Below are positions 56,545 to 62,094 of a stretch of DNA of 64,000 nucleotides, piece by piece. Each line of letters starts with the position of its first letter. Position 1 is the stretch's first letter. The position numbers were made by a program, and so were the translations under genes. The notes beneath the pieces were generated by a model. That model was not told the DNA's origin, made no database searches, and saw nothing but the letters and a program-made list of their open reading frames with translations. The stretch is from Vreelandella halophila (GTDB lineage: Bacteria > Pseudomonadota > Gammaproteobacteria > Pseudomonadales > Oleiphilaceae). The stretch spans positions 62,001 through 126,000 of the forward strand of contig NZ_WMEX01000006.1 of the NCBI RefSeq assembly GCF_009856365.1, read 5' to 3'.

Positions 56545-56633
<89 letters not shown>

Positions 56634-56639
56634 ATACAG

Positions 56640-56665
56640 AACCCGGCCATGTGCCGGGTTTTTTT
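56640..56665 (+). terminator. Terminator after tRNA-Ser
   Basis: Stem AACCCGGC/GCCGGGTT with a 5-nt loop and a following T run. It touches the stop codon of the convergent ATP-grasp gene. Confidence 0.9.
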
Positions 56666-57617
56666 ATGTCGGGATCTTCTCCCCGAACTCCGCCATGGCC
56701 ATCCCCGCCCGTGCCTCAGCGCTGTCCGGGATGTTCTCCTGGGCCTCAATCCACTGAAGCCGGGGCAGAAGTCCCTTGCCATTGGCAATCTGGATGGCCA
56801 GGCCAGGCCGGGCGTTGAGCTCCAGCATCAAAGGCCCCCGGTTGCGGTCGACCACGATGTCGGCGCCCAGATACCCGAGTCCGGTCAGGTCATGGCAGCG
56901 GGCGGCGAGGGTGAGGAGGTTCTGCCAGTCCGGGATGGCGATACGGTTCAGGTCAACGCCGGTGTCCGGATGGCTGTGTACGCGCCTGGAGTGCTGTACC
57001 GCGTGTATGCAGCGGCCACTGGCCAGGTCCAGCCCGACGCCGATCGCGCCCTGGTGCAGGTTGGCTTTGCCGTCGCTGGCATGGGTTGAGAGCCGGAGCA
57101 TGGCCATTACCGGTATCCCGCGGAAAATAATGACGCGGATGTCCGGGACGCCCTCGACGGACAGGGACTCGAAGTAGGGGTCCGCCTCGATAAGGTCCTC
57201 GATGATGACCGAGTCGGGGGCGCCGGCAAGGGAGTGCAGGCCTGCAAGAATGTTGGAGCAGTGACGCTGCAGGCTACCCAGCGTGAGGGCCTGTCCGGAT
57301 GCCTTCAGGAACTGCTCGCCGTCGCGCTCCCGGATGACCATAATGCCTTTGCCGCCGGCCCCACGGGAGGGTTTGATGGCGAAACGCTCGAGTCCCCCGA
57401 GGCGCTTACCCAGATCGCGGACGCCATGCTGGGTATCGATGACATCGCGCAGGGTGGGTGTAGCCACCCCGTGCAGCATGGCCCGCTCCTTGGTGAGCTT
57501 CTTGTCGTCCACCAGCGGATAGAGGCGGCGCTCGTTATACCTGGAGATATAGGACACATTCCGGCGGTTCATGCCCAGCAGGCCATGGCTCCGGAGTGTG
57601 GCGGGAGACACCAGCAT
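56664..57617 (-). CDS. ATP-grasp ligase, RimK-related (alpha-L-glutamate ligase-like)
   Basis: A 317-residue ATP-grasp enzyme. RYNERRLYPLVDDKKLTKE at the N-terminus, FAIKPSRGAGGKGI (ATP-binding, about 79-92), IIEDLIEA, DIRVIIFRG and the metal-binding end LMLELNARPGLAIQIAN place it in the RimK-related group called alpha-L-glutamate ligase-like. Such enzymes join an acyl phosphate to an amine, often forming peptide or isopeptide bonds. The substrate is unknown. Its ATG shares one base with the stop of the membrane gene upstream, so it is the third gene of a coupled operon. Confidence 0.88.
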   Translation of the reverse strand: MLVSPATLRSHGLLGMNRRNVSYISRYNERRLYPLVDDKKLTKERAMLHGVATPTLRDVIDTQHGVRDLGKRLGGLERFAIKPSRGAGGKGIMVIRERDGEQFLKASGQALTLGSLQRHCSNILAGLHSLAGAPDSVIIEDLIEADPYFESLSVEGVPDIRVIIFRGIPVMAMLRLSTHASDGKANLHQGAIGVGLDLASGRCIHAVQHSRRVHSHPDTGVDLNRIAIPDWQNLLTLAARCHDLTGLGYLGADIVVDRNRGPLMLELNARPGLAIQIANGKGLLPRLQWIEAQENIPDSAEARAGMAMAEFGEKIPT

Positions 57618-59140
57618 CAGTCCTTCTCCACCATCGAACGGAAACGGTAAAGCTCGGACAGCTTGTAGCCCGTGTACTGCCCGACGAGCAGGATCAGCGC
57701 GAGAATGATCAGGTGGACCTCAGGGAAGTTGAAGGTAAGGTGTCGGACTGTCGCCAGCTGCATGAGCCCATAGGCGGCAATGGCCACCAGCAGGCTGCCA
57801 CCGCCCTGTATGGCGACTTCCCGGGCCCCCTGTTCCTCCCAGATCACCGACATCCGCTCGATGGTCCAGGCAATGATGATCATCGGGAAGAAGGTGATGG
57901 TCATCCCAAGGTTGATCCCCATTTCATGGCCAAAGACACTCAGCAGACCTGTCAGCAGCACCACAAGTACGATCATGGCGGCGATCCGGGCCACCAGCAG
58001 GAGGTTGAGGCGTGACAGATACCCTCTCAGGAGCAGTCCCAGCCCGACAATGGTCAGGAAGGCGGTGAGCCCCGGCAGCAGCGTTGTCTGGATGAAGGCC
58101 AGGGCAATCAGAACCGGCATGAAGGTGCCGGATGTGCGGATGCCGATCACGATCCGCATGAAGGCCACAACCAGGGCGCCCAGGGGCAGCAGCAGGAGGA
58201 GCTTCAGCATGCCCTGTTCCTCGATCGGCAGCTGGTAGAGGCTGATGTAACCCAGAGGCTGGTCGGCCGAGGTCTGGCTCTGGGCGAGGTCGAGGGCGGG
58301 AATGCTCTGGCGCATCATCGAGAAGCGCACCTGGGAGTTCTGCCCGCCCATGACATCCAGAACGGGCCCGCTGGTGCGGTGCCAGACCAGGGTATTGGGC
58401 GTGATGCCCTGCTGGCCACCGCGCTCCAGGTCATAGAGATGCCAGGAATCCTCGATGTAGACGTCCACCAGCGGCTGGAGGCTCTGGTTGCGGCGGGCAT
58501 CCTCCAGCTTCAGGCCCATGGCGAGACGGGCTGGGACACCGGACTGGTTGAGAAGGCGGACAACCAGCTGCTGGGGTGAGTGCTGGTCCAGCAGCAGTGC
58601 CGCGTTCTGGTCGTTGGGGCTCTGGACTGCCTTGATCAGTTCCCGGGTCAGGCTCGCCGGTGTACTGGAGCGCCGCCGGGCTGTTTCCAGCAGGTCGGCG
58701 GCGGCTGTGGCCTGGGGCTCCTCCCAGATGATCCGTTGGGGGTTAGAGGGAGCCTCGGTGTTGCCGCTGGGGCGGGGCGTTCCGTTCTTGCCCGGAGCGA
58801 ACTGAACCTTGTAATAGAGGGTCTGGGGGCCCGTCGCTTGCCGCTTGGACCATTCGCCACGACGCCCCGTGGATTCAATGATGCGCGAGAACCCGTAACC
58901 CGGAGAGGCGGCCTGTTCGGAAATGATACGGTAACCCGGTGGGTCATTCGGGAGGCTCAGGCTTGCCAGTGTCTCGTCTCCCAGGGCGACGAAATCGATG
59001 CGTGCCTCCACCAGCCAGACTGGCTTGTCGTTTGCCGGCAGCAGGGGAATCCCCAGGCGGTCATGCCGCAGCCACATCATTGACACACCAATGATGATCA
59101 GCACCGATACAGCGAGGAAGAAAAGTGGCTGTTGCCTCAT
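57617..59140 (-). CDS. Inactive transglutaminase-like / 7TM membrane protein
   Basis: A 507-residue membrane protein. An N-terminal helix (about 6-24) leads to a periplasmic part that contains a transglutaminase-like fold (about 155-275; LVVRLLNQSGVPARLAMGL and DSWHLYDLERGG). The catalytic Cys before the GVPAR helix and the usual His are not seen, so this domain is probably inactive and may only bind a peptide. About seven helices follow from about 318 (MLKLLLLLPLGALVVAFM onward). It overlaps the protease-like gene by 4 bp. Confidence 0.88.
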   Translation of the reverse strand: MRQQPLFFLAVSVLIIIGVSMMWLRHDRLGIPLLPANDKPVWLVEARIDFVALGDETLASLSLPNDPPGYRIISEQAASPGYGFSRIIESTGRRGEWSKRQATGPQTLYYKVQFAPGKNGTPRPSGNTEAPSNPQRIIWEEPQATAAADLLETARRRSSTPASLTRELIKAVQSPNDQNAALLLDQHSPQQLVVRLLNQSGVPARLAMGLKLEDARRNQSLQPLVDVYIEDSWHLYDLERGGQQGITPNTLVWHRTSGPVLDVMGGQNSQVRFSMMRQSIPALDLAQSQTSADQPLGYISLYQLPIEEQGMLKLLLLLPLGALVVAFMRIVIGIRTSGTFMPVLIALAFIQTTLLPGLTAFLTIVGLGLLLRGYLSRLNLLLVARIAAMIVLVVLLTGLLSVFGHEMGINLGMTITFFPMIIIAWTIERMSVIWEEQGAREVAIQGGGSLLVAIAAYGLMQLATVRHLTFNFPEVHLIILALILLVGQYTGYKLSELYRFRSMVEKD

Positions 59141-59952
59141 TCTTCACCCTCGATGCTGCCGGCGGCCTCTTTCAGTTTATCGGGGTCACTGAGTATGAAC
59201 TGTCGTGATACATCCACCGTGAACAGGTCCCTGAGGATGTTGCGCCCGATCAGGGCAGGGTAGGTCAGGCGTTCCCGGTTGCTCAGGGTGAACTCCGCAA
59301 CCCGCTCAATCGAGCCGATGCGGTACTGGAGTTCAATCACTGCGCGCCTTTCATTCTCATCAGTGGATGCCTGGATGATCTCCACGAACCGTGACACCGG
59401 GCGTTCCAGTTCCATGGCGCCGCGGTCTGCGAAATGCTCGCCCGCCAGTGTGAAGCGGACATAGTCATCACCGTCGCGCTCAAAGAACTCGATATCCCTG
59501 GCGTCCAGGGATGAGGTATTGGCACCGGTGTCGATCCTCGCCTCAAAAAGATGGTCCGGGGGCAGCAGGCGGATGCCCTCCACCGAACCGATGGTCGTGA
59601 GTCCGGAGCACTGTTCGTTCCCGTTGGCCGGGCCGGTGTTCAGGATCGGGCAGGTGTCGCCATCGTTGTTGGTGCTGCGGGATGCAAGATGACGGTTGGT
59701 GACGCTGCGCAGCCGCTCCATCTGGTCCTGAACATTGGCGAACCCCTGCTGCTGCTGTTCCGCCACGTTCCTGTTTCCGCTCAGCAGGGCGTTGAGCAAT
59801 ACCTGCTGGGAGGCCAGTTGATCCTGCTGTTGCGCCAGCTGCGTCTTGAGCACCCTGAGGTCACTTTCCGCTGTGGAGGAGGAAGTAAAGTGGGTACAGC
59901 CGGCGCTTATCAGCGCCGCCAGTAAAATCAGGATGCGTGGCGCAGCTGGCAT
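59137..59952 (-). CDS. Retropepsin-like (RimB/PF05618-type) lipoprotein
   Basis: A 271-residue lipoprotein with lipobox LISAGC (Cys19). A coiled-coil, Gln-rich stretch follows (about 29-90). The C-terminal domain (about 120-260) has the aspartic-protease motif RIDTGANTSSLDA (Asp141) and the second hydrophobic-Gly motif ALIGRN (233-238). Databases often call this family ATP-dependent zinc protease, but the visible motifs are those of retropepsins. AGAGGA lies 5 nt before the ATG. It leads the three-gene operon. Confidence 0.85.
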   Translation of the reverse strand: MPAAPRILILLAALISAGCTHFTSSSTAESDLRVLKTQLAQQQDQLASQQVLLNALLSGNRNVAEQQQQGFANVQDQMERLRSVTNRHLASRSTNNDGDTCPILNTGPANGNEQCSGLTTIGSVEGIRLLPPDHLFEARIDTGANTSSLDARDIEFFERDGDDYVRFTLAGEHFADRGAMELERPVSRFVEIIQASTDENERRAVIELQYRIGSIERVAEFTLSNRERLTYPALIGRNILRDLFTVDVSRQFILSDPDKLKEAAGSIEGEE

Positions 59953-59993: not shown

Positions 59994-59999
59994 AGTATA
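59994..59999 (-). promoter_or_regulatory. Possible -10 box of the protease-like/7TM/ATP-grasp operon
   Basis: TATACT on the minus strand 42 bp before the operon ATG. No good -35 is at the right distance (best is CGTCAA), so the site is tentative. Confidence 0.3.
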
Positions 60000-60032
60000 G
60001 AGGCTGCACCTCTGTTTGACGATGGTTACCGC

Positions 60033-60108: not shown

Positions 60109-60217
60109 GGTGGTCCTGCTGGTGCCTTCGCAACGATAAACCGTGAACCCGGTCAGGCCCGGAAGGGAGCAGCCGTAGCGGTGGATTCGTGTGCCGGAGT
60201 GTCGCTGGCAGGCCACC
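60109..60217 (+). ncRNA. ffs: 4.5S signal recognition particle RNA
   Basis: The core GGTCAGGCCCGGAAGGGAGCAGCC region (about 60147-60172) includes the GGAA tetraloop and the asymmetric loop that binds Ffh. The outer ends GGTGGTCCTGC and GCAGG-CCACC pair. A T run (60222-60227) after the 3' end serves as terminator. The exact ends are approximate. It lies directly before dnaX, as in Pseudomonas relatives. Confidence 0.9.
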
Positions 60218-60321: not shown

Positions 60322-62094
60322 ATGACGTATCAGGTACTTGCGCGCAAATGGCGCCCTTCCCGGTTTCAGGATCTTGTTGGTCAGGAGCACGTGCTCAGGG
60401 CGCTCGTGCACGGGCTGGATCAGGATCGGCTGCATCAGGCGTTTCTGTTCACCGGTACCCGGGGCGTGGGCAAGACCACGATCGGCCGGATTCTGGCGCG
60501 GTGCCTGAGCTGCGAGCAGGGCGTCAGCTCCAATCCCTGTGGCGAATGCGACAGCTGCCGTGAAATCCAGGATGGGCGGTTCGTCGACCTGATCGAGATC
60601 GACGCCGCCTCCCAGACCCGCGTGGAGGACATGCGTGAGCTGCTGGACAACGTCCAGTACGTGCCAACCCGCGGTCGCTTCCGCATATACCTCATTGACG
60701 AGGTCCACATGCTCTCCAGCCACAGCTTCAACGCGCTGCTGAAGACACTGGAGGAGCCGCCCGACCACGTTAAGTTCCTGCTCGCCACTACTGACCCCCA
60801 GAAGCTGCCGGTCACGATCCTGTCGCGTTGCCTGCAGTTCAATCTCAAGCGCCTGGGGCCGGAACTGATCGTATCCCATCTGGAGCACATCCTGGCCCAG
60901 GAAGGTATTGAGTATGAGAACAGTGCCCTCTGGCTTCTGGGGCGTGCCGCCGATGGCAGTATGCGCGATGCCCTGAGCCTGACCGACCAGGCGGTGGCAT
61001 TCAGTGGCGGACGCCTGGAATCCGAGAGCGTCAGCCGGATGCTGGGCACCCTCGACCGGGCGGACATCTTCAGTATGCTGGATGCCCTGGTCCAGCGAGA
61101 TGGCCAGACGCTGCTCAGGGAGGTAAACCGGATCGCGGAGTACGCACCGGATTACAGCGCGGTACTGGCGGACATGCTGGATGTGTTCCATCGAATCTCC
61201 CTGGAGCAGGCGATTCCCGGGAGCAATGACAACAGCCAGGGAGACCGGGAACAGGTCCGGACCCTGGCAGGTCAGTTGAGCGCGGAAGATGCCCAGCTGT
61301 TCTACCAGACGGCGTTGACCGCCCGGCGGGATCTGGCGATCACGCCGGATGCGCGCATGGGCTTTGAGATGGCACTTCTGCGCATGCTCGCTTTCCGGCC
61401 GGAGCCGGTTGCGACCCCACCGCAGGGTGGCCGCTCGGAGCCGGCGGCGGAGGCATCGGGCGCTCCCGCCGGGGAACCGGTATCCCCGCCGGAGCCCGAA
61501 CCAGAACCCCAGCCCCAGCCTGAACCCGCTCCCGAGCCCGAACCAGCGCCGGATCCGGTGCCTGAACCAGAGCCGCCCATTCCTGAGGACGAGGCGGACC
61601 GGAATGCCGGGGAGGCATCACCAGCCACGGAGGCGCCCGAGACGTCGGCTGTCACCCCGGAGCCCGGTGTGGCGTCCGGTTTCGACTGGTGCCGTGACTT
61701 CGATCAGCTCCCCCTTCAGGGCATGCCGGCGACGCTGGCCGCGAACGCGGCCTGCCATGAGGAAGAAGGGGCCTGGGTTCTGACGCTGGCCGCCGGGCAT
61801 TACCAGCTGCTGCATGAGCGTCACCAGCAACGGATCCGTGAGGCTGTTGGGGCTGTGGTCGGCAGTACCATTACCCTGGTCTTCCGTGAGGGTGAGCCGG
61901 GCCAGGCAACCCCGGAAACCCACCGGCAGGCGCAGATGGAAGAGGCGCAGGCGAATGCCGTCAGCGCCATTCACGGGGATCCCGTGGTGCAGCAGATTGT
62001 GGAGCGTTTCGGCGGCCAGGTTATTGAAGACAGTATAAAGCCTCCGCAGGCTTCGCCAGCGGCGGCATCAGACAGCAGAGAGGTGGCACGATGA
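60322..62094 (+). CDS. dnaX: DNA polymerase III subunit tau (gamma/tau)
   Basis: A 590-residue clamp-loader ATPase. Walker [10 protein letters not shown] (45-53), a four-Cys zinc module (CLSC...CGECDSC), Walker [11 protein letters not shown] and sensor [21 protein letters not shown]. Domain III is followed by a Pro/Glu dipeptide-rich linker (about 385-425) and the C-terminal polymerase-binding region. I saw no A-AAA-AAG slippery site, so the shorter gamma product may not be made. It overlaps ybaB by ATGA. Confidence 0.95.

Follow-up and report, generated by a model that had tools for sequence, protein, structure and literature searches.

The window analysed here, a stretch of 64,000 nucleotides from Vreelandella halophila (contig NZ_WMEX01000006.1, positions 62,001 to 126,000), carries an rlo operon, rloA-rloB-rloC, a gene trio published in 2025 (PMC12239564), in a lipoprotein subtype that is new here. 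The operon encodes a retropepsin-like protease (RloA), a membrane protein with an inactive transglutaminase domain (RloB) and an ATP-grasp ligase (RloC). RloB and RloC hardly ever occur apart. A sister group has an RloB with the catalytic triad of the transglutaminase domain preserved and lacks RloA, and on this comparison RloA may have replaced a transglutaminase-like activity that RloB exerts in cis.

Three adjacent open reading frames (ORFs) on the minus strand, all with ATG starts, make up the locus at 56664-59952, in the order rloA-rloB-rloC. The first, rloA (59137-59952, 271 amino acids), codes for a retropepsin-like aspartic protease and probable lipoprotein, identified by PF05618 (110.5 bits, cut-off 27) and a match in the PDB. 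It is followed by rloB (57617-59140, 507 amino acids), which codes for an inactive transglutaminase fused to seven transmembrane helices (7TM), as judged by PF14400 (169.3 bits), PF14402 (340.1 bits, cut-off 25 for each) and a structural model, and by rloC (56664-57617, 317 amino acids), which codes for an ATP-grasp ligase of the alpha-L-glutamate ligase-like type (PF14397, 295.5 bits, cut-off 31.4; NCBIfam TIGR02291, 413 bits, cut-off 314.2). The ORF coordinates confirm the overlaps described in an earlier sequence-only reading of this DNA, 4 base pairs (bp) between rloA and rloB (59137-59140) and 1 bp between rloB and rloC (57617); identical overlaps occur in the nearest relative (L074). A chance grouping of the three genes is implausible, because the curated families score above their cut-offs and the trio is conserved; a neighbourhood of unrelated genes is ruled out by that conservation in relatives together with the co-occurrence of RloB and RloC. 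The host genome comprises 3.34 Mb in 19 contigs, and its nearest named relatives by RloB are Halovibrio salipaludis (96%) and Vreelandella utahensis (93%).

Like the rlo operon of Pseudomonas aeruginosa and P. fluorescens, that of the window combines the same three families in the same gene order, with a degenerate transglutaminase 7TM protein, a DTG retropepsin fold and conserved basic contacts to poly-glutamate. Unlike the Pseudomonas proteins, its RloA and RloB score under the NCBIfam Rlo cut-offs: RloB matches NF052267 end to end with 300.5 bits (cut-off 900), and RloA reaches 97.5, 85.8 and 77.3 bits with the RloA3, RloA2 and RloA1 models (cut-offs 210, 250 and 280), the RloA1, RloA2 and RloB models being of the narrow "exception" type. 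The mBio paper of 2025 (PMC12239564), as far as its main text goes, names rloA, rloB and rloC in P. aeruginosa, reports solved structures of RloA, and describes cleavage in vitro of poly-glutamate of at least eight glutamates. In Pseudomonas, the Rlo system governs survival at low salt, biofilm, cell shape and sensitivity to beta-lactams. When rloB or rloC is deleted, growth of an rloA-triple mutant on salt-free medium is fully restored and its other defects are partially relieved (PMC12239564). The sequence-only reading had placed the three genes in one pathway, linked them to osmotic or envelope stress and proposed peptide-type bond chemistry, all of which the main text of that paper bears out; its further statement that a shared role of the families was not established is contradicted by the same publication. 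Elsewhere, a Shewanella screen, as reported in PMC12096838, ties the inactive transglutaminase to vesicle overproduction, and PA1766-PA1768 were hit by transposons in a screen for suppressors (PMC7314104).

The transglutaminase-fold domain of RloB occupies residues 39-280 (58301-59026, minus strand), as delimited by structure comparison and alignment, and the PF14402 7TM region residues 259-503 (57632-58366, minus strand; G000:C16:119632-120366). In the model of the whole protein, one N-terminal helix is followed by a beta-rich domain and then by membrane helices. Comparison of the domain with the PDB (VIA-align) gave 3isr (Z 14.0) and TgpA 6g4h (Z 6.8), and the periplasmic domain of RloB has the fold seen in bacterial transglutaminase-fold domains, TgpA among them (6g4h, 3isr, 9crn). 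The membrane part of TgpA differs from that of RloB. Unlike TgpA-type domains, moreover, RloB has lost Cys and His: the triad columns of the window protein read gap (Gln in alignment A1), Gln and Asp, compared with Cys, His and Asp in intact relatives, so that only Asp is kept and the fold is catalytically dead, as the sequence-only reading had proposed. The C-terminus of RloB is predicted to be cytosolic, consistent with its fusion to the ATP-grasp domain in one relative (L069). For the 7TM region, a known transporter fold was considered and gave no clear structural match.

The relation between the triad and RloA was assessed in 159 aligned RloB sequences (40 matches of the first search, the window included, 40 from 62 new genomes, and 80 named loci); one match under the cut-off (L072), with no RloB by the model used, was left out. 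RloA was counted as nearby when located on the same strand within 700 bp or on the opposite strand within 1500 bp. The triad is kept in nine of the 159 proteins, none of which has RloA nearby and all of which have an adjacent RloC (one of them fused). Among the 150 loci with a triad-less RloB or no triad region, RloA is nearby in 143, which leaves seven: L047, L063, L070, L146 (contig end), L188, L189 (no transglutaminase domain) and L201. A later draw of 369 genomes yielded 38 new ones with a match, from which we fetched all new matches below 200 bits and four others (14 genomes); four more intact-triad loci were found, again without RloA (0/4) and with RloC (4/4). The 13 intact-triad relatives (L065, L067-L069, L183-L187, L227-L230) share with the window the 7TM and ATP-grasp core, and differ from it in their triad and in the absence of RloA at the locus. 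Eleven of their genomes, some of the 13 being incomplete (79-100%), contain no RloA: seven have no PF05618 protein and four have only RimB-type ones, which in two cases are adjacent to RimK. The remaining two (G033, G684) possess RloA, each time beside a second, triad-less RloB. The Pfam description, "usually fused to an inactive transglutaminase", suggests that exceptions were already known.

Some intact-triad loci contain additional genes. A protein of about 630-810 amino acids occurs at L065, L067, L068, L069, L183, L186 and L187 (a TPR protein according to Pfam at L068 and L069), and an exported ORF of about 390-400 amino acids lies downstream of the ATP-grasp gene at L065, L067, L068, L183, L186 and L187. 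A Pfam scan of L067-L069 revealed TPR proteins and, in L068, a weak outer-membrane-barrel match under the cut-off. These extra proteins are perhaps an export system for the product.

The linkage of RloB and RloC was examined among 185 genomes of the class, in which RloB (PF14402) exceeds the cut-off in 38, RloC (TIGR02291) in 32 and PF05618 in 90. RloB is present in all 32 RloC genomes, and PF05618 in 37 of the 38 RloB genomes (exception G071). The co-occurrence of the three families that the sequence-only reading had put forward as a check therefore holds for RloB and RloC and fails for PF05618, which is found without RloB in 53 of its 90 genomes; PF05618 is common without RloB because RimB belongs to the same family. 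Hypergeometric and Fisher values for these counts take no account of common descent and do not serve here as proof. In the 80 named loci, which rank highest among 577 for similarity of their RloB and thus are close relatives by selection, RloC follows RloB in every case (as two ORFs in L143) and RloA precedes it in 79, L146 being cut by a contig end. In L069 (3476-5992) an intact-triad RloB is fused in frame to an ATP-grasp domain within a single ORF of 838 amino acids. Such fusion is not a general feature, since it occurs in one genome only (G181), and the one family mate searched (G571) has an ordinary, unfused rlo operon.

RloC is missing at eight triad-less RloB loci (L070, L071, L231-L234, L236, L237), of which only L070 and L071 are represented in the RloB tree. 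At five of them (L071, L231, L233, L236, L237) RloA lies beside RloB in opposite orientation, and three contain, within the stretch that was fetched, a true RimK over the NF007764 cut-off (L233:2600-3505, L234:6887-7792, L236:4109-5026). RimK also occurs near RloB at L059 and L188; the "RloC" scored at L059 is this RimK, the contig ending after rloB. L235, where the contig ends inside RloB, was excluded from the group, and RloC only seems to be lacking at L034, where an ORF was called too long. At L188 and L189, RloC follows a 7TM protein that has no transglutaminase domain; the genomes concerned have a RimB/RimK pair and no clear RloA. In one family, each of the four loci that were fetched has a further ORF of 349-354 amino acids, weakly similar to RimK (40-46 bits), directly upstream of rloA (L196:7058-8107, L197:1535-2587, L198:7390-8454, L199:36-1100).

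The RloA of the window differs from Pseudomonas RloA in its greater length (271 amino acids), its probable lipoprotein nature, a predicted helix of 64 residues and the absence of a cysteine pair. Its hydrophobic N-terminus, read from the sequence, carries the lipobox LISAGC and fits export; the Ser at position -3 causes the strict lipobox pattern to fail, and the counterpart in L074 reads IAGC. The probable lipid-anchored Cys19 (codon at 59896-59898, minus strand) is invariant in the 39 RloA sequences of alignment A3. In the AlphaFold2 model, residues 28-91 (59680-59871, minus strand) form one single helix, a putative stalk, residues 93-115 are of low confidence and the protease domain is confident. 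Although one long helix is predicted, a coiled-coil stalk was dropped, since the heptad test on the window helix was not significant (p 0.134). The protease domain (residues 119-250; 59203-59598, minus strand), delimited by Pfam, AlphaFold2 and the PDB match, contains DTGA at residues 141-144, that is DTG followed by Ala, with Asp141 at 59530-59532. This assignment and the invariant cysteine uphold the earlier description of the protein as a retropepsin-like lipoprotein, the lipid anchor being probable. The closest PDB entries are 9g59 (E 2.5e-13) and 9g58 (E 3.1e-12), which represent RloA2/RloA. The conserved Pseudomonas contacts to poly-glutamate K46, R92, R114 and R137 align with R139, R188, R203 and R226 of the window protein, the first having changed from Lys to Arg. 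No Cys occurs after DTG in the window RloA, which therefore lacks the disulfide pair of periplasmic RloA that is visible in the Pseudomonas-type alignment rows.

The same traits recur in many relatives. Of 155 best hits of RloA type at RloB loci, which include two of RimB type (L188, L234) and one fragment (L232), 92 show a strict-pattern lipobox located 80 or more residues ahead of DTG, with a median distance of 114 from Cys to Asp (122 in the window). The protease domain is devoid of Cys in 90 of these 92, as in the window, and at least two Cys are found in 46 of the 63 others. In the RloB tree (54 rows) the window is located in a branch of 18 rows with support 100/100, in which 16 of the RloA proteins fit the strict lipobox pattern, the exceptions being the window itself and L195 (a short RloA). 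Loci of Vibrio, Aeromonas, Shewanella, Marinobacter and Halovibrio exhibit the subtype. The window thus belongs to a widespread group whose RloA is probably a lipoprotein, with a long predicted helix and without the published disulfide cysteines. The words "lipoprotein" and "coiled" do not occur in the main text of PMC12239564. Our literature searches found no paper on the lipoprotein RloA subtype or on intact-triad RloB relatives. Such neighbourhoods may be described by Iyer et al. 2009 (Mol Biosyst 5:1636). The RloA at L041 (5947-6735), the sole PF05618 match of its genome (G179), reads DPG where others have DTG and is altered elsewhere in the active site; judging from these residues, it is perhaps an inactive protease.

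Like rlo, the RimB-RimK system, which acts in cytosolic glutamylation of ribosome S6, pairs a retropepsin with an ATP-grasp ligase; unlike rlo, it is cytosolic and has no 7TM partner. RloC keeps the RimK-like stretches DIR, NLHxG and LELNxxPG. Membership of the window proteins in RimB-RimK is ruled out by scores far under both cut-offs (55.9 bits for RloA with the RimB model, cut-off 200). A RimB-RimK pair is also present in the window's own genome (L073:4085-5455), where both systems coexist.

From the gene identities, triad loss, linkage and predicted folds observed here, we infer a pathway in which the cytosolic, RimK-related RloC would make or attach an oligo-glutamate-like chain, RloB would pass or present this product on the periplasmic side through its 7TM part and dead transglutaminase domain, and RloA, held by its lipid and helical stalk, would cut it in the periplasm, outside the inner membrane. 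Without RloA, the product would build up and harm the envelope in low salt. An order of making inside, passing and cutting outside is favoured because deletion of rloB or rloC rescues the Pseudomonas rloA mutant. The same deletions place RloC and RloB before RloA and contradict the order of the sequence-only reading, in which a peptide was cleaved outside, sensed through the 7TM protein and rebuilt inside. That earlier interpretation is partly supported as a whole, and RloB may still have a signalling role. We regard the proposed pathway as evenly poised between right and wrong. More tentatively, RloB and RloC may form a core that synthesizes and exports a glutamate polymer, whose processing in the periplasm would be exchangeable: an active transglutaminase within RloB or, after triad loss, RloA in trans. 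The window would then represent the RloA version, in which the protease is lipid-anchored and its stalk has the length to extend toward RloB.

Several observations weigh against the proposed pathway. RloC reaches 29.8 bits with the RimK model TIGR00768 (cut-off 143.4), and we infer both its product and transport of that product by RloB. A structure search with the whole-RloB model gave background matches only for the 7TM region, which was modelled within RloB; the best rows were AcrB-type, with Z no higher than 5.7 across about 100 residues, which is background level for helical bundles. Cleavage of poly-glutamate is known from another RloA subtype, that of Pseudomonas, and loss of rloB or rloC alone also causes defects, according to the main text of PMC12239564; the K95 and K97 contacts are not kept in the aligned window RloA. 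Triad-less RloB proteins occur in four genomes in which no RloA was found (G167, G120, G658, G727), and RloA is therefore not always needed. In three others (G055, G368, G601) RloA is encoded elsewhere, not beside the triad-less RloB; a search of six further genomes had added such exceptions and unlinked RloA genes. Finally, the intact-triad rows form one clade of the RloB tree (100/97), so that an intact triad without RloA may represent one or two events and the comparative evidence is clade-limited; this clade joins L070 and L071 (91/95), possibly through long-branch attraction.

The linkage of RloB and RloC also suits a signalling relay, in which RloA would free a periplasmic peptide, the dead transglutaminase domain would bind it as a receptor, and the 7TM part would control RloC, whose cytosolic target might be, for example, a protein of cell-wall synthesis. 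A receptor role is plausible for a pseudoenzyme domain carried by a 7TM protein, and the phenotypes in Pseudomonas implicate the cell wall (PMC12239564, main text). We nevertheless consider this relay rather unlikely, since suppression of the rloA defect by loss of RloB or RloC implies that the RloC-RloB output harms the cell without RloA, and since a catalytic triad kept in the same domain of relatives suits processing more than sensing.

The chain might instead be attached to a carrier. RloC would then add glutamates to an envelope protein or peptidoglycan precursor, RloB would hand it over and RloA would trim it, with no free polymer. Post-translational poly-glutamylation is left open by the authors of PMC12239564, and the changes in cell shape and beta-lactam sensitivity would fit; the operon, however, encodes no carrier, and a proteome search for acidic stretches, in the main text of that paper, gave no cleavable substrate, modified proteins lying outside its reach; the paper names no natural substrate. 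On balance, such tagging appears unlikely. It is more improbable still that the lipoprotein RloA of the window shares only the partners of Pseudomonas RloA and cuts a substrate other than poly-glutamate. The lack of disulfide cysteines, the long helix, the loss of two contacts (K95, K97) and the low NCBIfam scores (at best 97.5 bits against 210) speak for a different substrate, and the four conserved basic contacts, the operon order and the partners speak against it.

As for the surroundings of the operon, a tRNA-Ser gene (56545-56633) is convergent with rloC, and a bacterial small signal recognition particle RNA (60117-60213) is located on the opposite strand upstream of rloA, before a divergent ORF at 60322. 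A sigma-70-like promoter site upstream of rloA (59994-60022, minus strand), found by motif scan, is a weak lead, as one site was found compared with 1.0 expected in shuffled sequences, which is chance level.

The intact-triad relatives constitute a second enzyme class that would be expected to act on the same product as RloA, and glutamate chains are likewise suggested by the true RimK that neighbours some RloB genes lacking RloC. Together, these relatives and RimK neighbours make the question of the Rlo substrate testable with purified proteins. The lipoprotein subtype bears on the site of cleavage in the envelope, and what most deserves further attention is that a retropepsin may have taken the place of a transglutaminase site.

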